Shown: one piece after another, positions 30,068 through 47,912 of the stretch
How positions within the stretch are numbered: the stretch's first letter is position 1
How the letters are laid out: every line of letters starts with the position of its first letter
Assembly: GCA_024349765.1 (NCBI GenBank)
Contig: AP026073.1
Span: forward strand, 1,116,001-1,180,000
From: Streptomyces nigrescens
GTDB taxonomy: Bacteria > Actinomycetota > Actinomycetes > Streptomycetales > Streptomycetaceae
Direction of reading: 5' to 3'
DNA length: 64,000 bases
Notes under the pieces: model-generated
The model's input: only the letters and a program-made list of their open reading frames with translations
Told to the model about the DNA's origin: nothing
Databases searched by the model: none
Made by a program: the position numbers and the translations under genes

Positions 30068-30084
30068 AACGAGGCGTGGGTGAA

Positions 30085-32509: not shown

Positions 32510-32892
32510 CGACCCTGCCGCGTAGTTACTGGTGCCATCGGGACTTCGACGGGCCGGGCCGAGGACGCCTCGAACTTCAGAGCATGACGACGCCCTACCC
32601 GGGCCGAGCCGTCACCTGGATGCGTGAGTCTGTCCGCGACGCCTTGACCGGCCTCGACCGTCCAACCTTCGGCATCGCGTGGGCATGGCTCGGTAATCAC
32701 CAAGCCTCCGGAGCCGCCATCAGAGAACTGCGTCAGGGACGGCCCTACACCTTCACGCTCCCGGCGCCCGATGGCCACTGGACGTGGAGCGCCCATCCCG
32801 TCTCAGTCCTTCCGGTCATCGAGACCTGCGCCAACGCTCCCTCTTCGCGCCAGCAGTTAGTGCCCGCCCACGCGAATGGGGACCCTCCGTAG
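32506..32892 (+). CDS. Hypothetical protein, 128 residues
   Basis: Starts with ATG overlapping the previous stop by 4 bases. The sequence (PRSYWCHRDFDGPGRGRLEL, FGIAWAWLGNHQASGAAIRELRQGRPYTF) gives no family I know. It has one in-frame TTA at 32857 (codon 118). The coupled start and absence of overlap with other good frames support a real gene. Confidence 0.58.
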   Translation: MTTLPRSYWCHRDFDGPGRGRLELQSMTTPYPGRAVTWMRESVRDALTGLDRPTFGIAWAWLGNHQASGAAIRELRQGRPYTFTLPAPDGHWTWSAHPVSVLPVIETCANAPSSRQQLVPAHANGDPP

Positions 32893-32942
32893 AGCAGCGA
32901 CGCCCGGTGTCCATCACTCGCGAACGACTGCCCGGAGACCAA

Positions 32943-33527
32943 ATGCCCCGCAACACCACCCTCTTTAGGTCTCGACCCACCCGCCAGGAGACAGCCACGG
33001 CCGCCTCCGCCCTTGAACGCGAGCTACGCGCTGCTGGACTCAGCGGCCTCCGGCCCGCCCTCGGCGGCGATGACGAGGAACCGCACGTCACGCTGAACGG
33101 GATCGACGCGGTCACCGCGGCGGAGCTCGCGCGGCTTCTCCGCAAGGGCATGCGGCGCACCTACAAGATCGCCTCCGACCTGCATGCCGCGCTGCTCTCG
33201 CACGGCCTGGAGGACTTCCCTACCCCGTACGTCCACAACGCATCGATCCACCTTGGTGACGTCTCGGTCTCCACCGCGGACCGGCTCGCCCTCATCTTGG
33301 GAGCCCCGCCCCAGCCGGACCTGCCTGACCTGCCGGACTGGCCGGAAGCGCAACAGGTCTACGAACGCCTCAACACTGCCTTCGTGAAGGCCACCCGGGG
33401 CGGATTCATGGACATGCACCTGCACCCCTACTGCCAGCGATGCGACCACGATCCTGCCATCACCCTGGGAGAGCTCAAGGTGCGCACCGCCCGGCGACTC
33501 GTAACGGCACTCCAGTACGGAGCCTGA
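32943..33527 (+). CDS. Hypothetical protein, 194 residues
   Basis: A soluble helical protein of unknown family. Segments LLRKGMRRTYKIASDLHAALLSHG and YVHNASIHLGDVSVSTADRLALILG look structured, and MHLHPYCQRCDHDPAITLGEL near the C-terminus has a His/Cys cluster that could bind a metal. ATG 32943 is preceded by CCCGGAGACC. It lies 50 bases after the preceding gene. Confidence 0.58.
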   Translation: MPRNTTLFRSRPTRQETATAASALERELRAAGLSGLRPALGGDDEEPHVTLNGIDAVTAAELARLLRKGMRRTYKIASDLHAALLSHGLEDFPTPYVHNASIHLGDVSVSTADRLALILGAPPQPDLPDLPDWPEAQQVYERLNTAFVKATRGGFMDMHLHPYCQRCDHDPAITLGELKVRTARRLVTALQYGA

Positions 33528-33529
33528 CC

Positions 33530-34141
33530 ATGACCTCCGAACCCCTCCGGCCCGACATCGCCCGCGGCCTCCTTGAGCGCGCCGAGAAGGCGCGCGAGCC
33601 GCGCAGCAAGCTCTCGCGGGGCCTGCTCAGCGAAACCGAGATCGACATGAGGCGTCACGCCGATCATGCGAACGCCCAGGTTCTGCGCCGGGTCGTTGCT
33701 GACCACGGGTGGCCCGGCCGGAGCCTTGTCGGTGAAGAAGCCGCCGAGGCGGCGTGGCAGATCGCCCTGCGCGCCGATCACCTCCCCGACTTCCAGCGCC
33801 TCGCGCTCCGCCTGATGGCCACGGCCGTAGAACGGGGCGAGGCGACCATCCAACAGTGGGCGCACCTGCACGATCGGTGCAGCATCAACGCCGGCGCGGC
33901 CCAGCTCTACGGCACCCAGTACCGCCTCGGCCCCAACGGGGCGGAGATCCTGCCGATCCGCGAGCCAGAGAACCTCGACGCACGCAGGGCCAGCGTCGGG
34001 CTCGTGTCGTTCGCCTCGGCGCAAGAGGCCCTTCGTCGTCGGCAGACCCGCGAGCCGGAGAGCGATTCGGCCGACGAGCCACGGGATGACGAGCCACATC
34101 GGGACGCGGCAACGGCGGAGTTCGTGAGGAGCGCGGCGTGA
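33530..34141 (+). CDS. DUF6624-like protein
   Basis: A 203-residue protein. LRRVVADHGWPGRSLVGEEAAEAAWQIALRADH, then AVERGEATIQQWAHLHDRCSI, AQLYGTQYRL and ENLDARRASVGLVSF follow the DUF6624 pattern, a family of unknown function. ATG 33530 lies 2 bases after the previous stop. The last four codons overlap the methyltransferase start. Not known to me as a tailoring enzyme. Confidence 0.7.
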   Translation: MTSEPLRPDIARGLLERAEKAREPRSKLSRGLLSETEIDMRRHADHANAQVLRRVVADHGWPGRSLVGEEAAEAAWQIALRADHLPDFQRLALRLMATAVERGEATIQQWAHLHDRCSINAGAAQLYGTQYRLGPNGAEILPIREPENLDARRASVGLVSFASAQEALRRRQTREPESDSADEPRDDEPHRDAATAEFVRSAA

Positions 34142-34737
34142 GCACAATCCAGGTACCGACAGACGAGGCCCGGCGGGCGCCGAGCGCAACCACCTGGGAC
34201 GCGTGGCAAGAGGACGGTCGTGGCTATCAGATCGTCACCGACACCGAGCTGATGAAATTCGCCACCCACTTCCCCATACGGTGCGGCCATGTCGCGGTGG
34301 ACGTCGGCTGCGGCAACGGCACCTTCAGCCGACAGCTCCACCGATTCGGCTATGACGTCACCGGTCTGGACTTCTCCGACCTCGCCCTGACTGCGGCACG
34401 ACGCACACCACTGCCCGGCGTGCAGTACGTGCACCACGACCTCAACCAGGGCGATCCACCCGGCCTGCCACCCCATGGCATCGACCTCGTAGTGTGCCGC
34501 CTCGTCCTGCCCTTCCTCCACGATCCGCTTGCCTGGGTTCGACGGGTCCGCGACCTCTGGCTGCGCCCCGGCGGCCGGATGTACCTCGTGATCCCCATCG
34601 TCGGCGAGGACGCTGACCAGCCCGGAGGGATGACCGAAGCGCAGATATCCGATGTCGCACACGGGTGGGCCCAGACCGTCCGCTACGACCTGAACAGATC
34701 GAGTGCGGCCCTCGCCCTGCGCAGCGCAGCGACGTAG
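34138..34737 (+). CDS. Class I SAM-dependent methyltransferase
   Basis: A 199-residue methyltransferase with motif I VAVDVGCGNGTFSRQL (about 53-68), the acidic end of strand two in VTGLDFSD, and motif IV region GIDLVVCRLVLPFLHDP. Substrate unknown; by location it may belong to the lanthipeptide cluster or be a separate accessory gene. GTG 34138 overlaps the previous stop by 4 bases, giving a coupled pair. Confidence 0.8.
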   Translation: MSTIQVPTDEARRAPSATTWDAWQEDGRGYQIVTDTELMKFATHFPIRCGHVAVDVGCGNGTFSRQLHRFGYDVTGLDFSDLALTAARRTPLPGVQYVHHDLNQGDPPGLPPHGIDLVVCRLVLPFLHDPLAWVRRVRDLWLRPGGRMYLVIPIVGEDADQPGGMTEAQISDVAHGWAQTVRYDLNRSSAALALRSAAT

Positions 34738-34948
34738 TCGGCCGCTCGGTGGCCCGGCGGCGGGGCTCGGCCATCGAGCGGCAAGGCGGTGGTCCGGTCA
34801 ACGCCGCGGTGGAGATGGCTCTGTTTCGGTCATCTCTGATCCTGCCCGTGCCCCCGGCGCGCGCAGCCAAGAAGGATGAAGGTCAATGACTAACCTCACT
34901 CGCCGCAACTGACTAACTCCCGTATGCAGCAAGGGAAGGAACTGACAT
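34738..34948 (+). promoter_or_regulatory. Spacer before the FxLD genes, probable promoter region
   Basis: A 211-base gap, the largest in the forward run. The last 70 bases are lower in GC and include direct repeats ACTAAC-N-ACTAAC-like (TGACTAACCTCACT and TGACTAACTCCCG, about 34887-34922), which could be regulator sites or a promoter of the core cluster. Frames in the gap are not convincing as genes. Confidence 0.4.
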
Positions 34949-36163
34949 ATGACTGTCGACTCCGATCGTGCGGCGGAGCTACGCGACAAGGTCGTCGACC
35001 AACTCAAAGAGGACGGCACGATCGTGTCGCCCAGCGTCGAGGCCGCCATGCGCAAGGTGCCCCGGCACCTGGCCGTACCAGAGGCGCCGCTCGACGACGC
35101 GTACAGCACCTACAACGCCGTGATCACCCAGGAGGACGAGCACGGCAACCACATCAGTTCCGTGTCCGCTCCGCAGATCCAGGCGATGCAGCTGGAGCAG
35201 GCCGAGATCCGCCCCGTCAACCACGTGCTGGAGATCGGCACCAACGGCCCCAATGCCGCCTACCTCGCGGAGCTGACAGGACCGACCGGACACGTCACGA
35301 CAGTCGACATCGACCCCGCGCCCGCCGCCCGCGCCGAGCAGTTCCTCACCGAGACCGGTTACACAAACGTCCACGTCATCGTCGCCGACGCCGAGCACGG
35401 CTTTCCCCAGCGCGCCCCGTACGACGCGATCGTGGTGACCGTCGGGGCGTGGGACATCCCCCCGGCCTGGATCGACCAGCTCAAGGATGGCGGCCGGCTC
35501 GTCGTGCCGCTCCGCATCAACGGCCTGACCCGCACCTACGGCTTCGTCCGACAGGGCGACCACCTACTCGCCACCAGCGCCCACGTGTGCGGCTTCGTCG
35601 CAGTGCAGGGAACCGGTTCCCACCCCCAGCAGTCGATGCAGCTGCCTGGAGACAAGGGCGTCACTCTGCACTTTGATGAAGGGCTGCCCGCCGACCCGGC
35701 GTTGCTGGACGGCGTCCTGGACACCCCCCGCGCCGAAACGTGGACCGGGGTGACCGTCGCCTACAGGGAACCCATCGGCACCCTCCAGATGTACCTGGCG
35801 ACGCACGTGCCGACGTATTGCAGCATGTCCATCGACCCCGAACTGGCCACCGACAAGATCGGCCCCACCCACCTCGGGTTCTCCATGGTCGCGATCGACG
35901 GCCCGAACTTCGGCTACGTCGTGTTGCGCCGCAACCCGGAGAAGCAGAACGCGGAATACGGATTCCACGCCTTTGGCCCCGACGGGGAAGCCTTCGCCGA
36001 GCGGCTGGCCGACATTGTCCGCACTTGGGGCAAGGAGCACCGCGGCACCACTGGCCCTCGCATCGCCGTCTACCCGGCGGGCACGCCCGATGACCGGATC
36101 TCCGGTGCCCGGATCATCGACAAGAAGCACAGCCGGATCTCGGTTTCCTGGCCGGTCGCGTAG
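34949..36163 (+). CDS. FxLD-system methyltransferase (stand-alone)
   Basis: A 404-residue protein related to protein-L-isoaspartate O-methyltransferase, of the family called 'methyltransferase, FxLD system' that accompanies FxLD lanthipeptides. N-terminal KVVDQLKEDGTIVSPSVEAAMRKVPRH and the SAM-binding segment VLEIGTNGPNAAYLAELTG (about 91-109) are visible; GTNGPN replaces the more usual GAGTGFN of the second copy at 41300. The C-terminal 200 residues are a family-specific domain. It may methylate an aspartate or isoaspartate of the peptide. GGAAGGAACTG precedes ATG 34949. It is 56 bases before the first precursor gene. Confidence 0.86.
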   Translation: MTVDSDRAAELRDKVVDQLKEDGTIVSPSVEAAMRKVPRHLAVPEAPLDDAYSTYNAVITQEDEHGNHISSVSAPQIQAMQLEQAEIRPVNHVLEIGTNGPNAAYLAELTGPTGHVTTVDIDPAPAARAEQFLTETGYTNVHVIVADAEHGFPQRAPYDAIVVTVGAWDIPPAWIDQLKDGGRLVVPLRINGLTRTYGFVRQGDHLLATSAHVCGFVAVQGTGSHPQQSMQLPGDKGVTLHFDEGLPADPALLDGVLDTPRAETWTGVTVAYREPIGTLQMYLATHVPTYCSMSIDPELATDKIGPTHLGFSMVAIDGPNFGYVVLRRNPEKQNAEYGFHAFGPDGEAFAERLADIVRTWGKEHRGTTGPRIAVYPAGTPDDRISGARIIDKKHSRISVSWPVA

Positions 36164-36219
36164 AACGCGGCGCCTGGCCAGGTCGTCCTGCACCATCCCA
36201 CCGATCAGGAGGACTTGCC

Positions 36220-36396
36220 ATGACTCCCAGGGTGACGGACCAGCACACGACCGCGTCGGTCCCTGCCGCGCAGGACCCGTTCGATCTCGACATCAGCGTC
36301 GTCGAGTCCGGCGGGACCGTCGCGGCGAGCGCCGCTTCCGACGGCGGCTGCGCCGCGACGTGCGGCGGCAACGCCTGCGTATCGAGCGGGTCCTGA
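36220..36396 (+). CDS. FxLD lanthipeptide precursor 1
   Basis: A 58-residue precursor. The leader carries FDLDISVVES (residues 21-30), the FxLD box recognised by class I LanB enzymes. The C-terminal core holds three cysteines (C44, C48, C53) with Ser/Thr at S37, S40, T47, S55, S56, S58 as potential dehydration sites. CAGGAGG lies 8-14 bases before the ATG. It differs from the other two precursors outside the leader box, ending in CVSSGS rather than CATNVA. Two hairpins follow before precursor 2. Confidence 0.93.
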   Translation: MTPRVTDQHTTASVPAAQDPFDLDISVVESGGTVAASAASDGGCAATCGGNACVSSGS

Positions 36397-36409
36397 CCGC
36401 ACCAGACCA

Positions 36410-36478
36410 CCGGCACGGTGCCCATGCCGTGCCGGCGCCGCCCACGCGGCACGTACACCGCGGCTCGCTCGGAGCCGC
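36410..36478 (+). promoter_or_regulatory. Two hairpins between precursors 1 and 2
   Basis: CCGGCACGG (36410-36418) pairs with CCGTGCCGG (36427-36435), and GCGGCTC (36460-36466) pairs with GAGCCGC (36472-36478). They could act as partial terminators or stabilise the 3' end of the precursor 1 message, changing the ratio of peptide to enzymes. Confidence 0.5.
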
Positions 36479-36502
36479 GCACAGCGATGGAGGAATCAGC
36501 AC

Positions 36503-36634
36503 ATGGAAGCCGACGAGTTCGACCTCGACATCAGCGTCCTGGAGTCCGGTGACGGCCAGGCCACGCTGATCAACCTGACCGACGACGGCTGCGGCAGCAC
36601 CTGCTCCAGCCCCTGTGCCACCAACGTGGCCTGA
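36503..36634 (+). CDS. FxLD lanthipeptide precursor 2
   Basis: A 43-residue precursor, the shortest. Leader box FDLDISVLES begins at residue 6, only five residues from the start, so the leader lacks the usual N-terminal stretch. The core has C30, C34 and C38 and ends DDGCGSTCSSPCATNVA, with Ser/Thr partners T21, T26, S32, T33, S35, S36 and T40. TGGAGGA precedes ATG 36503 by about 9 bases. Confidence 0.93.
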   Translation: MEADEFDLDISVLESGDGQATLINLTDDGCGSTCSSPCATNVA

Positions 36635-36671
36635 GCGTCTTCCCACACACGACGAGTAGGGAGAGCACCGT

Positions 36672-36851
36672 ATGAGCGCCAACACGATCAAGGACCGGGC
36701 ACAGCCCCCGAGCGCCACGGCGGGCGGCGACGCGTTCGACCTGGACATCAGCGTCCTGGAGTCCGGTGACGGGTCCGCTTCGCTGATCAACCTGACGGAC
36801 GACGGGTGCAAGCCCAGCTGCAACGGGTCCTGCGCCACCAACGTGGCCTAA
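36672..36851 (+). CDS. FxLD lanthipeptide precursor 3
   Basis: A 59-residue precursor, clearly a duplicate of precursor 2: both share FDLDISVLESGDG, then LINLTDDGC and CATNVA. Its leader has 16 more residues before the box. Cysteines are C46, C50 and C54 in DDGCKPSCNGSCATNVA. The Shine-Dalgarno sequence is GGGAGAG near 36659. The intervening residues differ, so the family is under diversification rather than being a simple repeat. Confidence 0.93.
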   Translation: MSANTIKDRAQPPSATAGGDAFDLDISVLESGDGSASLINLTDDGCKPSCNGSCATNVA

Positions 36852-36937
36852 CCGCCAGCACGGCCGGTGTGTCAGCCCGCGCGGTCACCCGCCGCGCGGG
36901 CTGGCACCTCCGGCACTTCACGGAACAGGGAGGGTGC

Positions 36938-39900
36938 ATGGATTCCAGGAACGGCGGACCGTTGTACCGGTGCGCGGACACGGCGCTCGTGCGCGCCGCC
37001 CGTTACTCGAGGCTGCCGCTGCCAGCGTGGCCGGACCTCACCGACGCCTCCCGAGCCGGACGGAGCCGGTGGCAGACGTGGCTGCGCGACGTTTGGTCGG
37101 TGGCCGAGGTTCCCGAGACCATCGAGCAGGCCAGCCCTCTGCTCGCACAGCAGGTCGATACCTTGTGTGCGGCGGCCCGGCCGGAAGCTCGTCAGCTCCG
37201 CCGTGCCCTGGTGTCCGTGATCCGGTACGTGCTGCGCATGACGGGCCGGGCGACACCTCACGGCCTGTTCGCCGGAATCGCACCAGCCTCGTTCGGGGCT
37301 CGGCCGGAATGGACCTGGGGCGAATGGCACCGCGCCGTCGTACGTGCCGACGGCGACTGGATCGCGGACATGATCAGCCGCCTGGAAGCGTCCCCGGATC
37401 TGCTGCGGCAGCTGTCCGTGATGGCCAACAACACCGCCTACGTACGCGGCGATCGGCTGATCGTGCCCTACCCGCCGCGATCGCGCCGTACCGAGAACCG
37501 CCCTGCTGCGGAAGTGTCCCTCCGCTACACCGCCGCTGCTCGGATTGCCGTCGAAGCCGCCGCCGCGCCCATCGCCTTCACCGCACTCGTGGAGAAGGTG
37601 CAGGCCGAGTTCCCCGACGTGCCCACGCCCCGCGTGGAGGGCCTCGTCACCAGCCTGGTCCAGCGCGGCGTGCTCATCAGCAGCCTGCACGCACCGGCCG
37701 CCACCCTCGACGCCCTCGACCACCTGGTCCAGCAGGCTGAGACTGCCGACGTGTCACAGGCCACGGACCTCGTGGTGGAACTGCGGCTTGTCCGCGACGC
37801 CATCGCGCAGCACAACCAGGTACTCGCCCCGGCAGACGGGCGGCGCCTACGCACAGCCTTGCGGCAGAAGATGACGTCCCTGAGCCCCGTCAAGGACCAG
37901 CCCTTAACGGTGGACCTGCGCATGGACTGCTCAATCACCCTGCCCGCACTGGTCGCCCGTGAGGCGGAGAAGGCCGCCACCGCGCTGGCTCGCCTCACCG
38001 CGTACCCCTTCGGCACACCCGCGTGGAAGGACTTCCACAACCGGTTCTTCGAGCGGTACGGCATCAACTCCCTCATCCCTGTCCGGGACGTCGTGGACTC
38101 GGATGTCGGGCTCGGGTTCCCGGCCGGATACCGGGACGCGGAACCCGAACAGCGAGAGGCCCTGACCTCCCGAGAACAGCAGCTACTCTCCCTCGCCCAG
38201 GCCGCCGTGCTCGACGGCCGTGACGAAATCCACCTGGACGAGGAGCTGATCCACGCCTTGACCGTCGGGGACCCGGACGCGGTGCAGGTTCCGGCGCACA
38301 CGGAGCTGCGCTTCCAGATCCACGCCACGTCACAGGCCGCCCTCGACGGCGGCGACTTCACCCTCCACGGCATCGCCCCCTCCCGTGGCATCGGCACGAC
38401 AACCGGCCGAAGCCTGGCGCTGCTGAATCCGGAGGAGCAGGCCCGTGCGGCCGCCGTGCTGGAGAAGCTGCCGGTCAACGCGCCCGGTTCGCTGCCCACC
38501 CAGGTCTCCTTCGCCCCGCTCAACCGCGGCGACGCCAACGTGACCCGCGTGCCCGAACTTCTGCCGGCCGTGATCAGCCTGGCCGAGCACCGTCCGGTGG
38601 ACGAGCGCACCATCATGCTCGATGACCTCGCGGTGGGCTGCGACCGCCGCAGGCTCTACCTCGTCTCACTCTCCCGCGGGTGCCTGCTGGACCCGATGAC
38701 GTTGCACGCGCTTGACCTGCGAGCCCACACGCCGCCGCTCGCACGATTCCTCACCGAGATCAGCCGCTCCCAGTGCGCGGTCCTGACCCAATTCCCGTGG
38801 GCGTCCGCCACCGCCCTTCCGTACCTGCCGCGCGTGCGCTACGGCCGCACGATCCTCGCCCCGGCCAGGTGGCGGCTGGACCGGTCGGAACTGCCCGACC
38901 GTCGCGCCTCCTGGGAGGAATGGCACACGGCCGTCGACGAGTGGCGCACGCGCCGCCGAATTCCGGACGAAGTCGCGCTGACCGAGGGCGACCAGCTGCT
39001 CCCGCTGGACCTTGCCGAAGGCGCCCACCTCGCGCTGCTGCGCGCACACCTGGACACCAGCAACTCGGCCACCTTGACCGAAACCGTCTCGGACGGCGGG
39101 TGGTGCGAAGGACGGGCCCACGAGATCATCGCCCCGATGACGGCCGCGCGCGCACCCCAGTGGCCGACGGTCCCGCCCGTGACCGCTGACCGGCTCCTCA
39201 CCCGCGACCACGGGTACCTGCCGGGAACCGCTCCGTGGCTGCTGGTCACGCTGTACGGGCACCCCGACCGGCAACCCGAGTTCCTTGCCCGCCACCTTCC
39301 CGTGCTCCTCGGCCAGTGGGACAAGCCGCCGACGTGGTGGTACATGCGCTACCGCGACCCCCGATCGCATCTGCGCCTCCGCATCGCGGTCCCCGATCCG
39401 CAGGACTTCGCCCCCGCCGCGCAACGTGTGAGTGCGTGGGCGGCCGGACTGCGCCGCGCCGGACTGCTGGCCGACATGAAGTTCGCCACCTCCTACCCCG
39501 AGACCGGCCGGTGGGGCACCGGGCCGCTGATGAGCCTGGCCGAAGACGTCTTCGCCGCAGACTCCCGCGCCCTGGCCGTCCAGTTCGCCCAGAACGAACG
39601 CCCCCACCAACAGGCCCTCACCGCAGCGAACTTCGTCGCGCTCGCTGCCGCCTTCACCGGCAGCACAGCAGGCGGCATGAGCTGGCTGATCACCCACGGC
39701 AGGATCACCGGCCCGCGCCCCTTGGACCGCACGGTGCTCGGCGACGCCGTACGCTTTGCCGATCCGACCGGCGACTGGGCCGCCCTGCGCGCGGCCCCCG
39801 GCGGCGCGGCCATAGCTACCGCCTGGAACGAGCGTGCCGAGGTCATCTCCCGCTACCGGGAGCGGCTGAACGACGCCGCGGGCATGGACCCGAACCTAGT

Positions 39901-40036
39901 CCTCGACTCCCTGCTGCACGCCCACCACATCCGCGCCGCCGGCATCGACAAAGACGACGAGCGCATGTGCATACGGCTGGCCCACGCCGCCGCAATGGCC
40001 TGGACTCACCGAGGAGATGACCATGGACCTGCGTGA
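36938..40036 (+). CDS. Lantibiotic dehydratase LanB, full length
   Basis: A 1032-residue class I dehydratase that activates Ser and Thr of the precursor with glutamyl-tRNA and then eliminates glutamate to give Dha and Dhb. The N-terminal glutamylation domain starts PLYRCADTALVRAARYS and includes RMTGRATPHGLFAGIAPASFG, the family's conserved Arg/His region. The C-terminal elimination domain (SpaB_C-like) begins at WLLVTLYGHPDRQPEF and includes WWYMRYRDPRSHLRLRI. ATG 36938 follows GGGAGGG; the longer frame would read back through precursor 3. One in-frame TTA codon is at 37904 (codon 323). It overlaps the cyclase gene by 14 bases. Confidence 0.93.
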   Translation: MDSRNGGPLYRCADTALVRAARYSRLPLPAWPDLTDASRAGRSRWQTWLRDVWSVAEVPETIEQASPLLAQQVDTLCAAARPEARQLRRALVSVIRYVLRMTGRATPHGLFAGIAPASFGARPEWTWGEWHRAVVRADGDWIADMISRLEASPDLLRQLSVMANNTAYVRGDRLIVPYPPRSRRTENRPAAEVSLRYTAAARIAVEAAAAPIAFTALVEKVQAEFPDVPTPRVEGLVTSLVQRGVLISSLHAPAATLDALDHLVQQAETADVSQATDLVVELRLVRDAIAQHNQVLAPADGRRLRTALRQKMTSLSPVKDQPLTVDLRMDCSITLPALVAREAEKAATALARLTAYPFGTPAWKDFHNRFFERYGINSLIPVRDVVDSDVGLGFPAGYRDAEPEQREALTSREQQLLSLAQAAVLDGRDEIHLDEELIHALTVGDPDAVQVPAHTELRFQIHATSQAALDGGDFTLHGIAPSRGIGTTTGRSLALLNPEEQARAAAVLEKLPVNAPGSLPTQVSFAPLNRGDANVTRVPELLPAVISLAEHRPVDERTIMLDDLAVGCDRRRLYLVSLSRGCLLDPMTLHALDLRAHTPPLARFLTEISRSQCAVLTQFPWASATALPYLPRVRYGRTILAPARWRLDRSELPDRRASWEEWHTAVDEWRTRRRIPDEVALTEGDQLLPLDLAEGAHLALLRAHLDTSNSATLTETVSDGGWCEGRAHEIIAPMTAARAPQWPTVPPVTADRLLTRDHGYLPGTAPWLLVTLYGHPDRQPEFLARHLPVLLGQWDKPPTWWYMRYRDPRSHLRLRIAVPDPQDFAPAAQRVSAWAAGLRRAGLLADMKFATSYPETGRWGTGPLMSLAEDVFAADSRALAVQFAQNERPHQQALTAANFVALAAAFTGSTAGGMSWLITHGRITGPRPLDRTVLGDAVRFADPTGDWAALRAAPGGAAIATAWNERAEVISRYRERLNDAAGMDPNLVLDSLLHAHHIRAAGIDKDDERMCIRLAHAAAMAWTHRGDDHGPA

Positions 40037-41282
40037 AAGCGCACGGGTCGCCGCCGACACGATCGCGGAGCGGCTGGCCTCGCCGCAGGACGTACGGACG
40101 TTCCACCACCGCCAGGGCTGGTGGCCGCAGTCCCTCGCGCACGGCGCCGTGGGCGTGGCGCTGCTGCACATCGAACGAGCCCGCACGGACCAGGGGCCGT
40201 GGCAACGTGCCCACGACTGGCTTGCTTGCGCCGCAGCAGAGCCCGCCGTCGGGGGCCCCGACAGCCACCTCTACTACGGGGCGCCCGCCCTCGCCTTCGC
40301 GCTGCAGGCCGCCGCCGACCGGCCCGGACGCTACGCCCGTGCCCTGAACACCCTCGACCAGTACGTCACGACGGCGATCCGTGACCGGCTGGACAGCGCC
40401 CACGCACGCATCGACCGCGGCGAGACGCCCGCGCTGGCCGAGTTCGACGCGATCCGGGGCCTGAGCGGGATGGGCGCCCTCCTGCTGCACCGCGATGTCC
40501 ATACCGACCTGCTTCGGGAGATCCTGGCGTACCTGGTCCGGCTGACCGAGCCGGTCAAACACGACGGCGAACTCTTACCCGGCTGGTGGAGCCACCTCGC
40601 TCCCTCCGGCGAAGCCTCCCCGGACTATCCGGCAGGGCACGCCAACAACGGCGTTGCCCACGGCATCGGCGGCCCCCTGGCCGTGCTCTCCCTGGCCGAA
40701 CGCCACGGCGTCACTGTGGAAGGCCACCGCGAGGCGATCACCGGGATCTTGGCCTGGCTCGACCAGTGGCAGCAGGACGGTCCCGCTGGTCCGTGGTGGC
40801 CGTACTGGATTACCCGTGAACAGCTACGGTCCGGCGTGCCCGGCCACGGGCCGTCCCGGCCGTCCTGGTGCTACGGGACAGCCGGGTTCGCTCGCAGCCA
40901 GCAACTCGCCGCCCTGGCCCTCAACGACCCGGCACGCCAATGCGTGGCCGAGACCGCCCTTCTCCGCGCGATGACGGATCCCTGCCAGCTCGACGCGACC
41001 GTGGACCTCTCCCTGTGCCACGGATTCGCGGGACTGGCGCACATCACGCAGCTCGTTGCCGCCGACGCCATCACGCCCGGCCTCGCCGAGTGCCTGCCCC
41101 GGCTCCTGGCCCCGATCACCGACACCGCGCCCGGCACGCTGGCGGACTCCCTGATCGACCCGCCCGGCGGTGGGGACATCGGGCTCCTCGAAGGTGCCGC
41201 AGGAACTGCCCTTGCCCTCCACTCCTTCCACACCGGGACGCCGTCCGCGTCCGGGTGGGACACCTGCTTCCTGATCAACTAG
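40023..41282 (+). CDS. Lanthionine synthetase C-like cyclase LanC
   Basis: A 419-residue zinc enzyme that adds cysteine thiols to Dha/Dhb to close lanthionine rings. Zinc ligands are C283 (WCYGTAG), C332 and H333 (CHGFAG), and the catalytic His region is NNGVAHGIGGPLAVL. The last domain ends DIGLLEGAAGTALALHSF, as usual for LanC. ATG 40023 has GAGGAG six bases upstream; ATG 40017 is too close to it. An in-frame TTA lies at 40575 (codon 185), so translation may need bldA tRNA. It follows LanB with overlap, and precedes the fusion enzyme by 17 bases. Confidence 0.94.
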   Translation: MDLRESARVAADTIAERLASPQDVRTFHHRQGWWPQSLAHGAVGVALLHIERARTDQGPWQRAHDWLACAAAEPAVGGPDSHLYYGAPALAFALQAAADRPGRYARALNTLDQYVTTAIRDRLDSAHARIDRGETPALAEFDAIRGLSGMGALLLHRDVHTDLLREILAYLVRLTEPVKHDGELLPGWWSHLAPSGEASPDYPAGHANNGVAHGIGGPLAVLSLAERHGVTVEGHREAITGILAWLDQWQQDGPAGPWWPYWITREQLRSGVPGHGPSRPSWCYGTAGFARSQQLAALALNDPARQCVAETALLRAMTDPCQLDATVDLSLCHGFAGLAHITQLVAADAITPGLAECLPRLLAPITDTAPGTLADSLIDPPGGGDIGLLEGAAGTALALHSFHTGTPSASGWDTCFLIN

Positions 41283-41299
41283 CCTTGAAAAGAGGGAAC

Positions 41300-43390
41300 A
41301 TGGCAGCGGACGAATGGCCGCAACGCCTCATCCGGTTCACCGACTGGAGCCGTGCGGAGACCACCGCCGTCGAGCATCTGCTCCCGTTGCTGACCGCCCA
41401 GGAGGCGGAGCTGACCCAGTGGTCGTTCCTGCGGAAGTTCCCCTGGTGGCGGTTGCGGTACCGCCCCGTAGGCCCGGACTCCGCTGAGGAACTGGACGCT
41501 GCCCTGGACGAGCTGGTCGCTGCCGGCGTCCTCGCCTCCTGGACGCGGGGCATCTACGAGCCGGAAGAGACGGCCTTCGGCGGTCCGGCCGCCATGGAGA
41601 TGGCGCACACCCTGTTCCACCACGACAGCCGCCACCTGCTGAACCAGCTGGCTCGCGAGCAGGGCGCGAGCGGCCCCGGGCTCGGACGCCGCGAGCTGGG
41701 GATCCTCCTGCTCAGCGTGGCGATGCGCGCAGCGGGACTCGACTGGTACGAGCAGGGCGACGTCTGGGTGAGGATCGCAGCCGAACGCCCCGGCGACGAA
41801 ATCCGCGGTCCGCAACAGAACAGGGCCGCCGTTCACCGGCTGATGACGGTCGACGTCAGCACCACCAGCCGCAGCGTCACCTCGGGCCGACTCGCGCCGC
41901 TGGCCGAGTGGATAGCCACGTTCGAGTGGTTCGGCCAGCAGCTCGCAGACCTCAACCGTCAGGGCCGCCTGGAACGAGGACTGCGGGCCGTGATCGCCCA
42001 CCACGGCATCTTCCACTGGAATCGTCTGGGCCTACCTGCGGAGGACCAGCACACCTTGTCAACACTCGCGAAAGAGGTAGTCATGGGAACGAGCGACAAC
42101 GCCGCGTCCACCCGAACTGAGGGCGCGCCGAGCACTACGGTCAACGGGGTGAACAGTGACACCATCGAAGCCAGCACCGCCGACCGCCTGCGCACCCAGC
42201 TGATCGACCATCTGGTCCAGAAGGGATACGTGCGTACGCCACGCGTGGAGGAAGCCATGCGGACGGTTCCCCGCCATCTCTTCGTCCCGAACGCCCCGCT
42301 GGAGAAGGCATACGGGAACGCCCCCGTGAACACCAAGCTCGACGAGTCCGGCGTCTCCATCAGCTGCGCCTCCCAGCCCGACATCGTCGGCATGATGCTG
42401 GAGCAGCTGGACGTCGAGCCCGGCCAGAAGATCCTTGAGCTGGGCGCGGGCACCGGCTTCAACGCCGGTCTCCTCGGCTACCTCGTCGGGGAGAAGGGGC
42501 ACGTCACCACGATCGACGTGGACGAGGACATCGTGGACGGGGCCCGTGCCGGACTGGCCGCCGCCGGCATCCACAACGTGGAAGTGATCCTCGGAGACGG
42601 CGCGGTAGGCCACGCCCCCAACGCGCCGTACGACCGCATCGAAGCCACCGTCGGCGCCCACGCAGTGCCCCACGCCTGGCTCGAACAGCTCGCCCCCGGC
42701 GGACGGCTCCTCACCCCGCTGCGCCTGCGCGGCAGCGTCTCGCGTTCGATCGCCTTCGAGCACCAGGACGGCGCCTGGCGCAGCGTCGGCAGCCAGATGA
42801 ACACGTTCATGCCGCTCCGCCAGGGCATCGCCGACGACCCGCGCGTCTTCGTTCCCCTGGACCCCGACAACACCGTCACCCTCGTCACCAACGGAGATCA
42901 GAAGGTCGACGCGGACGCCCTGAGCGACATCTTCCGCAAGCCGCGCGCCGAGGCGTGGACGGGCGTCAACTTCCGGGGCCCGGAGTCGGCGGAGTACCTG
43001 GAACTGTGGCTCGCCTGCGCCATGCCCAACGGCCTGAGCCGGATGCCCGCCAAGGACGAGGCCATCAAGAAGGGTCTGGTCACCGCGCCCTACCCCTCCT
43101 CCACCGCCGTCTTCGAGGGCGACACCCTCACCTACCTCACGCGGCGTCCGGCCGCCGAGAAGGCCCCCGACGGCGCCACCCTGTACGAATTCGGCGTCAT
43201 CGGCCACGGCCCCGACGGCAAGGCACTCGCCGAAGATGTCGCCGACCAGATCCGAGCCTGGGACCGTGACTTCCGGGCGCTCGAAGTCGGGTTCGAGATC
43301 CAGCCTCTCGACACGGCGCCGCCCGCGACGAAGCCCGGTCGCTTCGCCTTCGACAACGAGCTGAACCGCATCGTCATCGAATGGCAGTGA
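41300..43390 (+). CDS. Fusion: thiopeptide-type biosynthesis domain + FxLD methyltransferase
   Basis: A 696-residue protein. Residues 1-260 match the small thiopeptide-type bacteriocin biosynthesis (SpaB_C-like) proteins: EWPQRLIRFTDWSRAETTAVEHLLP, then FLRKFPWWRLRYRP and GIFHWNRLGLPAEDQHTL. From about 262 on it is an FxLD-system methyltransferase with VPRHLFVPNAPLEKAY and the SAM motif ILELGAGTGFNAGLLGYL. These are usually separate genes. A good Shine-Dalgarno sequence and ATG at the junction (42083) suggest the methyltransferase may also be made alone. ATG 41300 follows AAAGAGGG. Confidence 0.88.
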   Translation: MAADEWPQRLIRFTDWSRAETTAVEHLLPLLTAQEAELTQWSFLRKFPWWRLRYRPVGPDSAEELDAALDELVAAGVLASWTRGIYEPEETAFGGPAAMEMAHTLFHHDSRHLLNQLAREQGASGPGLGRRELGILLLSVAMRAAGLDWYEQGDVWVRIAAERPGDEIRGPQQNRAAVHRLMTVDVSTTSRSVTSGRLAPLAEWIATFEWFGQQLADLNRQGRLERGLRAVIAHHGIFHWNRLGLPAEDQHTLSTLAKEVVMGTSDNAASTRTEGAPSTTVNGVNSDTIEASTADRLRTQLIDHLVQKGYVRTPRVEEAMRTVPRHLFVPNAPLEKAYGNAPVNTKLDESGVSISCASQPDIVGMMLEQLDVEPGQKILELGAGTGFNAGLLGYLVGEKGHVTTIDVDEDIVDGARAGLAAAGIHNVEVILGDGAVGHAPNAPYDRIEATVGAHAVPHAWLEQLAPGGRLLTPLRLRGSVSRSIAFEHQDGAWRSVGSQMNTFMPLRQGIADDPRVFVPLDPDNTVTLVTNGDQKVDADALSDIFRKPRAEAWTGVNFRGPESAEYLELWLACAMPNGLSRMPAKDEAIKKGLVTAPYPSSTAVFEGDTLTYLTRRPAAEKAPDGATLYEFGVIGHGPDGKALAEDVADQIRAWDRDFRALEVGFEIQPLDTAPPATKPGRFAFDNELNRIVIEWQ
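42083..43390 (+). CDS. Possible internal start: FxLD methyltransferase alone
   Basis: In frame within the fusion gene, ATG 42083 is preceded by AAAGAGG (42071-42077) with six-base spacing. Starting here gives a 435-residue protein beginning MGTSDNAAST, close to the natural N-terminus of stand-alone FxLD methyltransferases. Either the long fusion, both forms, or mainly the short form is made; sequence cannot decide. Confidence 0.45.
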   Translation: MGTSDNAASTRTEGAPSTTVNGVNSDTIEASTADRLRTQLIDHLVQKGYVRTPRVEEAMRTVPRHLFVPNAPLEKAYGNAPVNTKLDESGVSISCASQPDIVGMMLEQLDVEPGQKILELGAGTGFNAGLLGYLVGEKGHVTTIDVDEDIVDGARAGLAAAGIHNVEVILGDGAVGHAPNAPYDRIEATVGAHAVPHAWLEQLAPGGRLLTPLRLRGSVSRSIAFEHQDGAWRSVGSQMNTFMPLRQGIADDPRVFVPLDPDNTVTLVTNGDQKVDADALSDIFRKPRAEAWTGVNFRGPESAEYLELWLACAMPNGLSRMPAKDEAIKKGLVTAPYPSSTAVFEGDTLTYLTRRPAAEKAPDGATLYEFGVIGHGPDGKALAEDVADQIRAWDRDFRALEVGFEIQPLDTAPPATKPGRFAFDNELNRIVIEWQ

Positions 43391-43391
43391 C

Positions 43392-44498
43392 ATGGACGTC
43401 AGCCAGATAGCGCAGCGGTTCCCGCTCGTCGCCCGTCCACGCCCGGCCTGCCCGCCCCTCGCCGATCGGGTCCGAGAGATCAGCGACCTCGCTCGCGCCG
43501 CCCAGCGCGAGGACAATGTGAACTCCGCGACCGTCGCCCTGAACAAGGCGGCGCTGATCGCGAGCGACTGCGGCATGCCGGACCTGGCGCGCGCTCTGTG
43601 CTGGCGTCACGCCGAGGTCTTCCTGCGCGCTCAACCCCTGAGCGCGCAGGAAGCCCGGTATGCCCTGGAGCCCCTGGTCAACCTGGCCCGGCTGCGTATC
43701 CGCGACAGGGACGGGCACGGCGCGTACGTCCTGCTCGACGCCTTGAACCGAGCGGTGAGATCGAAGGAGGAAGCGGTCATCGACGGCCGCCCCATGTCCT
43801 TCCAGCACCTCACACAGTCGGCGGCCGACCACCAGACGGTGCGCCAGTGGCTGTGGACTGTCCTCCTCGGTGACGGAACCCGCGCCCTCGTCGCCGCCGG
43901 ACAATGGGACCGCGCACGGGCACACGGCGAGCAGCACCGCGGCGTAGGCCAGCGTCTCTTCGACGGGCGTCAAGTAGAAGTGCTCGTCCGCTGCCTCGGC
44001 GGGCAACCCAGCGAAGCACTGAAATTCCTGAACGAGAGCACCCTGTCCGAGAACTGGGAACACCCGGTCGCTGCGTGCCTCGCAGTGCTCTGCCTCACCG
44101 CAGCCGGAGAACGCCCCGTCGGCCCCGTCGGGACCATGGTGAAGCACTACCTGGCCCTCGACGCGGCCCCGGAGCTTGCCGTCTTCCGCTGCCGGGTCGG
44201 ACTGGCCGTGCTTGACCTCTCCCCACGTACCCGGCAGGCCGCAGCGTTGAGCCGCCTCACCCACGAGGCAACGACGTACGGGGACGGATACGTCGCGCGT
44301 GATGTCCTCGCTCACCCCGTGTGCCGCGATGAGATGAGCCGCGACGAGCTCGGCACGCTGTCGGCCGCCGTCGCCTCGGCCGGCCTCGGTCAAGGGCACA
44401 TCCCCGCACCCCTGGAGCAAAACCTCCTGGACGCCGTCACGGTCAGCGCGGGCGTAACGGAACGACACCTGACTCAGCGGCTCCCTGCCGACTCATGA
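43392..44498 (+). CDS. Alpha-solenoid-like protein of the lanthipeptide cluster
   Basis: A 368-residue almost wholly helical protein with TPR-like periodicity (SATVALNKAALIASDCGMPDLARALCWRHAEVFLR, residues about 36-70; ALVAAGQWDRARAHGEQH later). I do not recognise a named family; similar repeat proteins accompany FxLD and other RiPP clusters. It starts one base after the fusion gene stop, so the two are coupled. It is the last cargo gene: the next gene is the first tail-side structural gene, 43 bases on. Confidence 0.65.
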   Translation: MDVSQIAQRFPLVARPRPACPPLADRVREISDLARAAQREDNVNSATVALNKAALIASDCGMPDLARALCWRHAEVFLRAQPLSAQEARYALEPLVNLARLRIRDRDGHGAYVLLDALNRAVRSKEEAVIDGRPMSFQHLTQSAADHQTVRQWLWTVLLGDGTRALVAAGQWDRARAHGEQHRGVGQRLFDGRQVEVLVRCLGGQPSEALKFLNESTLSENWEHPVAACLAVLCLTAAGERPVGPVGTMVKHYLALDAAPELAVFRCRVGLAVLDLSPRTRQAAALSRLTHEATTYGDGYVARDVLAHPVCRDEMSRDELGTLSAAVASAGLGQGHIPAPLEQNLLDAVTVSAGVTERHLTQRLPADS

Positions 44499-44528
44499 CG
44501 ATCCCCTCGGTCTGTCCGACACCGGCCA

Positions 44529-44534
44529 TAGCGT
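44529..44534 (+). promoter_or_regulatory. Possible leaderless promoter for the tail module
   Basis: TAGCGT ends 7 bases before ATG 44542, the spacing of a leaderless start, as for dnaG and the gene at 29362. No convincing -35 and no Shine-Dalgarno sequence are seen. If real, it would let tail genes be transcribed independently of the cargo block. Confidence 0.35.
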
Positions 44535-44541
44535 CGGGCGA

Positions 44542-44913
44542 ATGGAACACCACGACAACTCCCAGCACCACGTACAGATCACCGCTCACGGAGGCAAGGC
44601 CGACGTCGAGATCGACGGCAAGCCGGTGGACCCGCGCGCCGTCAAGGCGTACTCCGTCACCCATTTCGCGGGCGAACGGCCGGAGGTCCTGCTGCACGTC
44701 GCAGACCGCGGCGACACCCAGTGGTCCGGGATGGCCCGCGTCGCGGTCGCCGACCTCCCCGACCCCGGCCCCGCCGCGGCCGTGTTCCTTGAGGCGATCG
44801 ATCCGGAGACATTGGAGCGTGCGACGCTGGCCCGCCCCGATCTCGGAACCGAGCCGAACTCGCTGACGAAGGCGATGCTCACCCAGCTCGGGGAGTGGGC
44901 ACGTGGCCTTTGA
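44542..44913 (+). CDS. Hypothetical head-tail region protein
   Basis: A 123-residue soluble protein (VQITAHGGKADVEIDGKPVDPRAVKAYSV, then LLHVADRGDTQWSGMARVAV), probably beta-rich at the N-terminus. It overlaps the next head-tail gene by 11 bases, so it belongs to the structural operon that resumes here. Family unknown to me. Confidence 0.65.
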   Translation: MEHHDNSQHHVQITAHGGKADVEIDGKPVDPRAVKAYSVTHFAGERPEVLLHVADRGDTQWSGMARVAVADLPDPGPAAAVFLEAIDPETLERATLARPDLGTEPNSLTKAMLTQLGEWARGL

Positions 44914-45334
44914 CGTGGACGGTGCGCGCCGCGTTGTCGACCGCATCATGGATGACCAGCTGGAGGTATGGCGGGATAGCGCGGGCCGTACGGATGATGT
45001 GCTGGACGAGACCACGGGCAGACTCGTGCAGCCTGCGCCCGATGAGGAGCTGGTCTGGGACGGACTCGGCGCGGTGATGCCGATCAGCCGACCTGCCATC
45101 ACACAGCCGGTCGGGGGATCGCTCGCCGTCGAACCGCCGACCACCGACTATCAAGCGGTGCTGCCGGTCAGCGTCCCGCCGCTGCGCCGCGACGACGTGA
45201 TCCGCGTCGCCGGATCCATCCGCCCCGAAGGCCCACGCGATCCGCAGCTGGTGGGCCGCCGCTTCCGTGTCTCCGACGAAGCCGTGGGCACCTACAGCGT
45301 GGTGCGCATCGTCCGAGTCCAGGTGATCGACTGA
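44903..45334 (+). CDS. DUF6093-like head closure protein
   Basis: A 143-residue protein. The segments MDDQLEVWRDSAGRTDDVLDETTGRL, then TDYQAVLPVSVPPLRRDDVIRVAGS and VGRRFRVSDEAVGTYSVVRIVRVQ follow the small beta-rich DUF6093 family, found at the head-closure (neck) position of actinophages. GTG 44903 lies within the previous gene; the stop overlaps the next ATG (TGATG). Confidence 0.72.
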   Translation: MAFDVDGARRVVDRIMDDQLEVWRDSAGRTDDVLDETTGRLVQPAPDEELVWDGLGAVMPISRPAITQPVGGSLAVEPPTTDYQAVLPVSVPPLRRDDVIRVAGSIRPEGPRDPQLVGRRFRVSDEAVGTYSVVRIVRVQVID

Positions 45335-45762
45335 TGGCCACGGCCAACCCGCACCCCAACGCCCACCCGGACGCCACTGCCTTCCGCGACCCGATCGCGC
45401 TGGCCGCCGCACTGGCCCGGATGGGCCCGGCGGCCCGCGCCCGCACTCGGACGATCACCCGGCACTACGCCATGCTGCTGCGGGTCCGCATCCAGCGGAA
45501 CGCGAGCGGCAGGCCGGGCCCGAACGTGATCACCGGGCAGTACCGCGCCTCGTGGGACGTGCGGATGCGCACCGGCGGCGGCGAGGTCACCGCCGAGGTG
45601 TTCTCCGATGCACCGCAGGCGAGGCGACTGGAGTACGGGTTCGTGGGCGTGGACTCGATCGGACGGCACTACCGGCAGCCACCGTTCCCGCACGTCGAGC
45701 CCGCGTTCCGACAGACCGAACCGGCGTTCATCCAGGCGCTGGCGGACGGGGTCCTGCCGTGA
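45334..45762 (+). CDS. HK97 gp10-like neck/tail completion protein
   Basis: A 142-residue protein: ALAAALARMGPAARARTRTITRHYAMLLRVRIQRNASGRPGP, then ITGQYRASWDVRMRTGGGEVTAEVFSD and RRLEYGFVGVDSIGRHYRQPPFPHVEPAF. The basic helix, the central GxYR and the RRLEYG...PHVEPA ending are the usual features of HK97 gp10-type minor neck proteins. It overlaps both neighbours. Confidence 0.78.
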   Translation: MATANPHPNAHPDATAFRDPIALAAALARMGPAARARTRTITRHYAMLLRVRIQRNASGRPGPNVITGQYRASWDVRMRTGGGEVTAEVFSDAPQARRLEYGFVGVDSIGRHYRQPPFPHVEPAFRQTEPAFIQALADGVLP

Positions 45763-46202
45763 CCGCCCGGCTCCCCGTCACCCGGGCACTCGCCGCATTG
45801 GTCGAGCACACCACTGGCCGCCCGTGCGGCGTCGGTGAACTCCCGCGCGTGCAGAAGACGTCAGGCTGGGAACCCGCAGCCGCCCCCTACACGATCCTCG
45901 ACTCGCTGCCCGCCGAGTTCAGTGGCCCGCCCCTGTGGGACTGGCACGCGGACGCGGCCTGGTCCTACCAAGTCACCTCGGTCGGGGAACGGGGCGATCA
46001 GGTGGAGTGGCTGGCCGACCGTGTACGCGCCGGCGTCGTCGGCCGGAGCGACGGCCTCTGGACCCATGACCTGTATGTTGCCCAATTCCGCGTCATAGAC
46101 CGCGAGCTGACCTACGACGCTGGAGGAGAGCCCTCCGTGACGGCGGCAGGCGCTATCGTGTCCTACGTGCAGCGGTTCACGATCACCGTGACCCCTGCCT
46201 GA
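45759..46202 (+). CDS. Tail terminator-like protein
   Basis: A 147-residue protein placed between the gp10-like and tail-tube genes, where the tail terminator is normal. YTILDSLPAEFSGPPLWDWHADAAWSYQVTSVGERGDQVEWLADRVR (about 46-92) fits the mixed alpha/beta fold of these proteins. GTG 45759 overlaps the previous stop. Confidence 0.68.
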   Translation: MTARLPVTRALAALVEHTTGRPCGVGELPRVQKTSGWEPAAAPYTILDSLPAEFSGPPLWDWHADAAWSYQVTSVGERGDQVEWLADRVRAGVVGRSDGLWTHDLYVAQFRVIDRELTYDAGGEPSVTAAGAIVSYVQRFTITVTPA

Positions 46203-46333
46203 AGAAACGTTTTATCTCATCCTCACCGCGGAGGCCCGCGCGGACGCTAGGCCCCAGGCCAGGCGAACCCCCTTTGAACCTCAAGGGGCAGGGCCTCGGC
46301 ACGGGACGCTGCCCCAGAAGTGGGAGCGGACCT

Positions 46334-46981
46334 GTGTCCACGAGCACGAAGAAGACCCAGACCCGATTTCTGCGGCGCGGCATCTCCAAGATCCTCTGGG
46401 TGAAGGATCTGGGTGACCCGAAGTACCCCAGCCGCCGGGAGATCAACGGCGCCTACGGCCTGACCGATGCCGTCTCGGACATCGAGGGCTGGGCGCTGGA
46501 GAACGACCCCATCGAGACCCCCGACATGGGCTCGACCTTCAACTCCTCGATCCCAGGCAACGACAAGGCCGACAAGTCCAGCCTGACCTTCTACGAGGAC
46601 CGGTTCTCCGACGCGATCGAGCAGCAGCTCACCAAGGGCGCGAAGGGCTACGTCGTCCTGCTGCGCAAGGGGGACCTTCCCGGTTCCCGCTCCGTGGACG
46701 TCTTCCCCGTACAGGTCGCCACCCGCGCCGCGACCTACTCGACCGGCAACGAAGCGGCCAAGTTCAAGGTCGACTTCACGATCACCGACGAGCCGTCGCT
46801 CGACCGCCCCGTGCCGCAGGCACAGCACCGCCCGCTGCCGGACGAGGACTGCGACGAGGGCCACGAGCACGGGCACGGCCACCACGACCACGACGGTGAC
46901 CACCTCGATGTGACCGTGGTCAGCACCACCAAGACCAAGACCGAGGCCACGGTCAGCGAGCACGACGCTGACGAGGGCTGA
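46334..46981 (+). CDS. Major tail tube protein with His/Asp-rich C-terminus
   Basis: A 215-residue protein. GISKILWVKDLGDPKYPSRREINGAYGLTDAVSDIEGW, then SSLTFYEDRFSDAIEQQL and YVVLLRKGDLPGSRSVDVFPVQV fit the tail tube subunits of actinobacterial siphoviruses. After the fold, the tail DEGHEHGHGHHDHDGDH (about 178-194) is nearly all His, Asp and Gly and could bind metal ions on the outside of the tail. GTG 46334 follows GGGAG with 7-base spacing. Confidence 0.82.
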   Translation: MSTSTKKTQTRFLRRGISKILWVKDLGDPKYPSRREINGAYGLTDAVSDIEGWALENDPIETPDMGSTFNSSIPGNDKADKSSLTFYEDRFSDAIEQQLTKGAKGYVVLLRKGDLPGSRSVDVFPVQVATRAATYSTGNEAAKFKVDFTITDEPSLDRPVPQAQHRPLPDEDCDEGHEHGHGHHDHDGDHLDVTVVSTTKTKTEATVSEHDADEG

Positions 46982-46983
46982 TC

Positions 46984-47879: not shown

Positions 47880-47912
47880 TCAACCCCCGCATCATGTAAG
47901 GAGGCCGCCGCG

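Follow-up and report, generated by a model that had tools for sequence, protein, structure and literature searches.

Candidate anti-phage FxLD lanthipeptide cluster in the exchangeable cargo bay of a Streptomyces prophage

The closest described relatives of the system reported here are the lanthiphages, defined as LanBC class I lanthipeptide clusters of Actinomycetota (PMC12715929). Anti-phage lanthipeptides reported so far act inside the cell and block late phage transcription, with escape arising through phage GNAT mutants (PMC12360287). In Streptomyces coelicolor, two LanA peptides of 43 (SCO6932) and 59 (SCO6931) amino acids (aa) are followed by the LanB SCO6930 and the LanC SCO6929 (PMC3091789); SCO6931/6932 have been assigned to anti-phage defence (PMC12175524), and the product has been named lanthiphage_Sco (PMC13343842). 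A survey of 2112 actinobacterial prophages recorded biosynthetic gene clusters (BGCs) in 13, including several class I lanthipeptide clusters in Streptomyces (PMC10023795), so that bare carriage of such clusters by Streptomyces prophages is not new. Here, we analyse a 64,000-nt stretch of the Streptomyces nigrescens genome (the window; bases 1116001-1180000 of AP026073.1, from a 9.33-Mb genome in two contigs), in which, as in the cases of that survey, a class I lanthipeptide cluster, here of the FxLD type, lies inside a prophage. All the parts named in a preliminary description of this DNA (three precursors, LanB, LanC, two FxLD methyltransferases and a solenoid gene) were recovered by TIGR04363 and TIGR04364, Pfam and AlphaFold, between head genes and neck/tail genes, and together they carry the hallmarks of a complete FxLD class I lanthipeptide cluster.

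34949..36163, + strand: FxLD-system methyltransferase 1, PCMT-like (TIGR04364, 496 bits, cut-off 320; PF01135)
36220..36396, + strand: FxLD precursor 1, 58 aa (TIGR04363, 38.6 bits)
36503..36634, + strand: FxLD precursor 2, 43 aa (TIGR04363)
36672..36851, + strand: FxLD precursor 3, 59 aa (TIGR04363)
36938..40036, + strand: LanB dehydratase (PF04738, PF14028; Lant_dehydr_N 2e-219), its start probably the ATG at 36938
40017..41282, + strand: LanC cyclase (PF05147, 7e-56)
41300..43390, + strand: SpaB_C-type domain (TIGR03891) fused to FxLD methyltransferase 2 (TIGR04364, 521 bits, cut-off 320)
43392..44498, + strand: TPR-like solenoid, all-helical, the last gene of the cluster (AlphaFold predicted local distance difference test score 88.7)

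The window cluster fits the lanthiphage definition. Like lanthiphage_Sco (SCO6927-SCO6938), it is a class I LanB-LanC system of an actinomycete with precursors of 43 and 59 aa in the same order, a likeness drawn from the published lengths and gene order, the sequence comparison itself covering S. coelicoflavus. It differs in its position inside a prophage late operon and in having three precursors as well as an additional FxLD methyltransferase that stands alone, and no cvn system was seen in the window cargo. The cluster of S. coelicoflavus likewise has 43- and 59-aa precursors in the order of the window; its LanB is 79% identical, and the final 24 residues of its 43-aa precursor are identical to those of window precursor 2. 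All three window precursors pass the TIGR04363 cut-off, and a search of the genome found no others above it.

According to the explanation that we favour, with a probability of about 0.6 for the whole, the element would be a temperate tailed Streptomyces phage with a late operon split in two. Its head unit would stop at gene 28528 and its neck/tail unit would restart at gene 44542 from its own leaderless promoter, and the bay between these units would accept DNA of widely varied length with the virion gene order left intact. Relatives would swap this cargo, the likeliest route being homologous recombination between the conserved flanks, perhaps driven by the phage's own RecT-like protein and nuclease. 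The cargo of the window, a lanthiphage-type FxLD cluster with regulators, would yield lanthipeptides that stay in the cell and guard the lysogen against infection by other phages.

20305..28157, + strand: head unit, with small and large terminase subunits, portal, scaffold, decoration and major head protein (PHROG)
28528..28860, + strand: final gene of the head unit, its stop codon marking the left bay edge (junction comparison across 10 distinct elements, including the window)
28861..44512: cargo bay content of the window prophage, 15.7 kb (edges by junction comparison)
44513..44541, + strand: promoter-like element at the bay exit, TGTCCGACA ... TAGCGT, 7 nt upstream of the 44542 ATG (junction alignment and pattern search)
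44542..57007, + strand: neck and tail unit, then endolysin (PHROG)

The major head protein (phrog_29) was matched in 58 of 295 Streptomyces genomes. DNA around it was fetched in 34 genomes in addition to the window's own, and the window proteins were mapped onto this DNA; the matches left unfetched (23 of the 58 genomes) were mostly below 35% identity or fragments. Elements and loci are labelled G### and L###, the window prophage being G000. The interval between the homologs of 28528 and 44542 ranges from about 1 kb to 57 kb. Twelve left junctions were compared, which represent 10 distinct elements (L150 and G006 are identical DNA, as are L161 and L140); among these 10, sequences diverge immediately beyond the 28528 stop codon, except that the window and L163 have their first cargo gene in common (65%), and L154 terminates at this stop. 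The left edge of the bay is thus the stop codon of 28528, and the right edge is the promoter-like motif before 44542. Element length minus bay is constant at 49-50 kb in G000, G006 and G117, which measure 65.4, 66.7 and 98.4 kb with bays of 15.7, 17.1 and 49.2 kb, respectively. Transposition or site-specific insertion of the cargo was considered and rejected: the longest words common to both bay edges have 6-9 bases in five prophages, a length reached by 18-100% of random pairs. With no edge repeats above the random level, recombination in the flanks would be the simplest route of exchange.

On either side, the capsid, neck, tube and tape measure genes of the preliminary description were confirmed, whereas its 'connector' (28528) and 'chaperone' (46984 and 47535) owe their names to position, the searches of window proteins having matched these three genes to no family of known function. 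Likewise, the cluster does occupy 34949-44498, the right part of the cargo, but the cargo reaches further left than had been described, to 28861.

The bays of relatives hold quite different genes. Hidden Markov model searches, which matched nine of the 10 proteins scanned for defence functions, identified DpdB, DpdE and DpdJ in G117, SspA and SspC in G025, Cas3e and Cas6 together with CRISPR-like repeats at 61-nt spacing (CRISPR-Cas I-E) in G014, and LmuB and LmuA (Lamassu) in G259; broader PADLOC scans covered 134 hand-picked bay proteins out of 546, a count that runs to the end of the fetched DNA in six elements. Conserved flanks, a single site and dissimilar defence cargo make this a prophage defence hotspot, though one that also holds non-defence cargo. 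In P2-like phages and their satellites, such hotspots are fixed slots with exchangeable defence systems. Compared with those, the present slot lies inside the virion operon, holds up to 57 kb and ends at a promoter-like restart motif. Streptomyces phage ZL12 (GQ919031) has the same head-neck-tail gene order and a head protein 50% identical to that of the window; it differs in having only two genes between the flanks and no exit motif.

The pattern TGTCCGACA-N5-C-N-TA(A/G)CGTCG abuts the 44542 ATG in the window and four sisters, and was later found in two further elements. With up to three mismatches it occurs twice in the window (44513 and 57310), where 0.10 occurrences are expected.

57310..57333, + strand: second copy of the exit motif, with 2 mismatches, upstream of 57366 (pattern search), with no start codon at leaderless distance

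Its core, TANNNT placed 6-7 nt upstream of the first right-hand gene, was present in 23 of the 31 elements of a first scoring, at the called start in 19 and, in the remaining four (G276, G228, G025 and G167), at an upstream in-frame start with no intervening stop. The eight elements without it (G069, G220, G224, G277, G180, G248, G283 and ZL12) all have intervals below 2 kb. As background, 10 of 811 other genes have TANNNT at the called start, and 19 have it if flexible starts are allowed; among 309 other virion genes the counts are two and three. Both called-start virion cases are homologs of 45334, one lying after a second interruption (G289) and the other being the first right-hand gene of its own element (G014, which was scored at 45334, its 44542 not having been found). 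In loci fetched later, with starts taken from tblastn alignments and upstream in-frame starts permitted, the motif appeared in seven of seven loaded elements (G295, G296, G297, G298, G301, G302 and G304) and in none of five short ones (L176, L177, L180, L181 and L182). Overall, it is present in 28 of 28 elements with an interval above 4.5 kb, counting the window and those whose right side was found, and in one of 14 with an interval below 2 kb (13 distinct, as L177 is 99.6% the same as L176). Five elements with no right anchor in the DNA fetched (G265, G090, G097, G279 and G120) were not scored, nor was L173, whose 44542 was not detected and whose 45334 lacks the motif; G240, in which the motif precedes a gene with just 27% likeness to 44903, was excluded from the 28. 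Because the single short element with the motif, G278, has an interval of 1.15 kb, the motif tracks the clade more than the load.

On a 41-row phage core tree built from three proteins (six rows, G240 among them, lack one or two of these; G304, whose head gene lies outside the stretch used, L177 and the unscored elements are excluded), the motif maps to one change (support 97/96; 98% of 200 bootstrap trees), which suggests that the late operon was split once. Searches of 28400-45000 gave no sigma-70 consensus promoter and three terminators, not above shuffles. In S. coelicolor, 80.4% of start sites have TANNNT as their -10 motif, and leaderless transcripts account for 21% of primary starts (PMC4895711). 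In line with this, the exit motif may act as a leaderless restart promoter of the neck/tail unit.

FxLD clusters occupy ten bays: G000, G240 (retained in this count), G024, G011 and G253 in a first set, Streptomyces sp. DvalAA-43 (L140/G295) and S. aureocirculatus NRRL ISP-5386 (L146/G296) in a later one, and three IMG/VR records (G301, G302 and G304; G301 is closely related to G304, with 87-97% likeness at the DNA level). The arrangement is no assembly artefact of a single genome, since DvalAA-43 carries a cluster of this type at the corresponding position in the same phage. FxLD presence in nine of the 41 core-tree rows takes eight changes on the resolved form of the phage tree, in which the fork between G240, G259, G301 and G302 stays unresolved; in phages with very similar cores the slot carries unlike loads, FxLD clusters in G301 and G302 and LmuA/LmuB in G259. 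Judged by these comparisons, bay cargo turns over between relatives and is not fixed, which does not support the earlier proposal that a position in the middle of the virion operon argues for stable carriage.

A LanB tree of 46 rows (10 bay, 36 non-bay) gave a similar picture. The bay label takes seven changes, six of which the supported branches make unavoidable. The window, L140 and L146 are separately placed among non-phage clusters, whereas G011, G240 and G253 group in a single bay clade; G024 sits on a long branch. In label shuffles, 10 to 17 out of 500 were as clustered as the real labels. Non-bay labels rest on 10-kb flanks and the absence of the head protein in named genomes, where short contigs may mislead, and on head-protein coordinates in the remaining ones.

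FxLD clusters mostly lie outside these phages, in keeping with the preliminary description. LanB relatives (E up to 1e-100) occur in 88 of 295 Streptomyces genomes, by coordinates inside the bay in five of the 88, and FxLD methyltransferase matches in 128 of the 295. The closest relatives of the window LanB (77-82% identity) comprise two bay copies (L140 and L146, 81%) and non-phage clusters. No head or tail gene of this phage was found in the 40-80 kb fetched around the nearest FxLD clusters, those of G281, G256, G160, G195, G225 and G013, G160 having less than 6 kb on one side of its cluster. The left part of the window cargo has its own counterparts at such clusters.

30085..31091, - strand: small gene and HTH_31/DUF5753 regulator (Pfam for 30297-31091); homologs of the pair adjoin the FxLD cluster of G225
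31503..31925, + strand: HATPase_c_2 regulator (Pfam)
33530..34141, + strand: DUF6624 protein, found also upstream of FxLD clusters outside phages
34138..34737, + strand: S-adenosylmethionine (SAM) methyltransferase (family search)

As relatives of the regulator pair (G225) and of the DUF6624 protein (G281, G256, G160 and G195) accompany FxLD clusters outside phages, the cargo resembles a chromosomal cluster with its own control genes. A LanB 78% identical to that of the window was also seen on a 510-kb Streptomyces plasmid (NZ_CP109471.1, 97373-100468). Viral contigs gave no LanB match with the single window protein as query and five with an alignment as query, namely three known bays and two IMG/VR records of 129 and 124 kb (L225 and L226), whose FxLD clusters have LanB identities of 47% and 40% and which show no match to this head protein.

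Several features suggest that the phage may still be mobile and, possibly, continues to produce particles. The prophage, 65.4 kb long, is integrated at the 3' end of a tRNA-Met and has the gene set of a complete temperate tailed phage, namely integrase, attachment (att) repeat, terminase, portal, head, neck, tail and lysis; its right-hand families comprise neck (phrog_5), tail tube, tape measure, distal tail and endolysin (PHROG).

9933..9979, + strand: attL core, an exact 47-bp repeat in the 3' part of tRNA-Met (9904-9980)
75370-75416 (window coordinate, beyond the right edge of the window): attR, the identical 47-bp copy (exact repeat)
10129..12018, - strand: integrase (phrog_1, 1e-42), which we take to be of the tyrosine type
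18038..19372, + strand: phage protein that combines a DAM-like and a GNAT-like domain, adjoining the terminase on the left (PF22555 7e-80, PF22559 2e-47)
59305..61484, + strand: RecT-like annealing protein and PD-(D/E)XK nuclease, both of which may drive the exchange of cargo

Across the class (394 genomes from 137 genera), relatives of the head protein (E up to 1e-60) were found in three genomes, all Streptomyces, one being that of the window. Virion genes are open, and the ratios of nonsynonymous to synonymous substitution rates (dN/dS) against loaded sisters are 0.08-0.11 for the head protein, 0.06-0.14 for the large terminase subunit TerL and 0.14-0.19 for the tape measure, the highest virion value being 0.43 (distal tail versus G030); cluster genes have 0.17-0.32. 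Virion and cluster genes are thus under purifying selection. It is plausible that the phage mobilises the peptide cluster.

Some observations nonetheless weigh against the explanation as a whole. Recurrent non-defence cargo includes an amino-acid permease with a companion without Pfam match (11 bays), glutamine synthetase (eight bays) and an AspRS-like tRNA synthetase (six bays). The prophage has a GNAT-like gene; with escape reported to map to phage GNATs (PMC12360287), the phage might itself be a target of the peptide. G240 carries an FxLD cluster and no neck/tail gene up to the contig end, so that broken elements do exist. A LanB search of 50,697 phage records yielded only two matches, at 22% identity and none close, and the 98-kb G117 may exceed one head. 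The findings on G240 and on LanB in phage records, together with the gap between a core of about 49-50 kb and elements of 65.4, 66.7 and 98.4 kb, would also suit a grounded or domesticated prophage, in which the bay is chromosomal DNA accumulated after mobility ended and the virion genes are remnants or were repurposed. We regard this as unlikely, though the most serious of the alternatives: in all sister comparisons dN/dS stays below 0.45 across the 18 virion genes and the endolysin tested, frames are open, att is intact, and the exit motif is kept in all 28 loaded elements scored. Head capacity as a sign of dead phages was dropped because ZL12, with its related head protein (50%), has a 90-kb genome, so that large elements may fit.

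As to the product, the preliminary description had offered a lysogeny benefit, a weapon and an anti-phage or virion-modifying factor without singling out one; the anti-phage role fits best. Scans of the cargo proteins revealed neither an exporter nor a leader protease (30085 lay outside these scans, and 28868, 29368 and 32258 were covered by PADLOC or PHROGs only), the closest published cluster is reported to be anti-phage, and such peptides are reported to act inside the cell. For these reasons, the best reading of the window FxLD cluster is that of a prophage-borne anti-phage system of the lysogen. A secreted antibacterial with which lysogens kill competitors appears improbable. The idea that bacteria use BGCs on prophages as weapons against each other has been published, reportedly by Dragos in 2021, and an immunity gene could escape a family search; set against this are the lack of an exporter or leader protease in the scanned cargo and the reports that the closest published cluster is anti-phage (PMC13343842, PMC12175524) and that such peptides are active inside the cell (PMC12360287). 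Least probable of all is that the lanthipeptide or the PCMT-like methyltransferases act on the phage's own virion, or on late transcription through the GNAT-like protein, to maintain lysogeny: the position of the cluster between two late units, the GNAT-like domain in 18038-19372 and the reported block of late phage transcription with GNAT escape mutants (PMC12360287) would suit it, but related clusters (LanB 57-82%) occur in 10 named genomes in which this head protein has no relative, the cluster is absent from sisters whose virion genes are similar, and a search of 31 records detected no GNAT gene in 12, among them six with FxLD clusters and some with only part of the element. FxLD-linked residues were sought in the GNAT-like protein; two of 444 positions differ, the FxLD side being only G000, G295 and L161 (the latter the same DNA as G295), and nothing was inferred from them.

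A literature search on prophage cargo, with limited coverage of subscription papers, found no paper describing the bay. Among 35 IMG/VR loci with this head protein, seven contigs stop exactly at the 28528 stop codon and 13 end within 5 kb past the left bay edge with no right anchor (L178 being a 6-kb metagenome fragment), whereas eight run more than 9 kb unanchored in the DNA examined, six are anchored within 2.5 kb and one is without 28528. Provirus callers may cut the phage at the slot, causing these record ends. As 20 of the 35 records end near the left edge, the cargo of phages like this one may have been classed as chromosomal, which, if true, would go some way to account for the low number of prophage BGCs in surveys. 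We lean, on balance, towards a wider account in which one Streptomyces phage clade would have evolved the bay once, with a leaderless promoter and up to 57 kb of exchangeable cargo for defence and biosynthesis, would have acquired anti-phage lanthipeptide clusters repeatedly, and would be split at the slot by provirus callers, with few BGCs reported as a result. If so, an anti-phage natural product would have gained both a vehicle and a reason to move, a phage would exclude other phages chemically, and a late operon would have been reshaped to make room for a large load. Further anti-phage systems could be sought simply by means of the flanks and the exit motif.

Within the window cluster, LanC contains SWCYG and LCHG, motifs presumably tied to its function, and the PCMT-like enzymes might modify aspartates in TDDGC, a guess from their chemistry. 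The solenoid protein (43392..44498) has no Pfam or NCBIfam match; PDB relatives were sought by sequence (none at E up to 0.1) and with Foldseek (none with E up to 0.001), and none was convincing. PADLOC searches of 10 window-cargo proteins returned only mad2 matches, to three methyltransferases, which we read as generic. The small partner gene of the HTH_31/DUF5753 regulator, without scan, looks DUF397-like by eye. Elsewhere in the window prophage, a ParB-like protein is present, two small - strand genes (22355-22916) sit inside the head unit, and 12564-13511 encodes Recombinase and zinc-ribbon domains of a serine recombinase, its catalytic domain unmatched in the called frame, with relatives in six sister prophages (38-88%).

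Other bays hold further unusual cargo. Two radical SAM proteins recur in three bays as part of a module with an AspRS-like protein and a 119-aa protein (L079 2290-6664, L029 11014-15756 and L042 845-3840), accompanied, by eye, by a cupin-like protein; the module resembles a cluster for a ribosomally synthesized and post-translationally modified peptide with a spare target enzyme. The bay of G289 (L046, L071) has, by eye, kinase, S8-protease-like and type VII secretion-like genes, and its second interruption, between the homologs of 44903 and 45334, again comes with the leaderless motif. At the right end of the longest bay (G284; L082 2800-13529) lie two proteins of 2124 and 1382 aa, both Rhs-like by eye.

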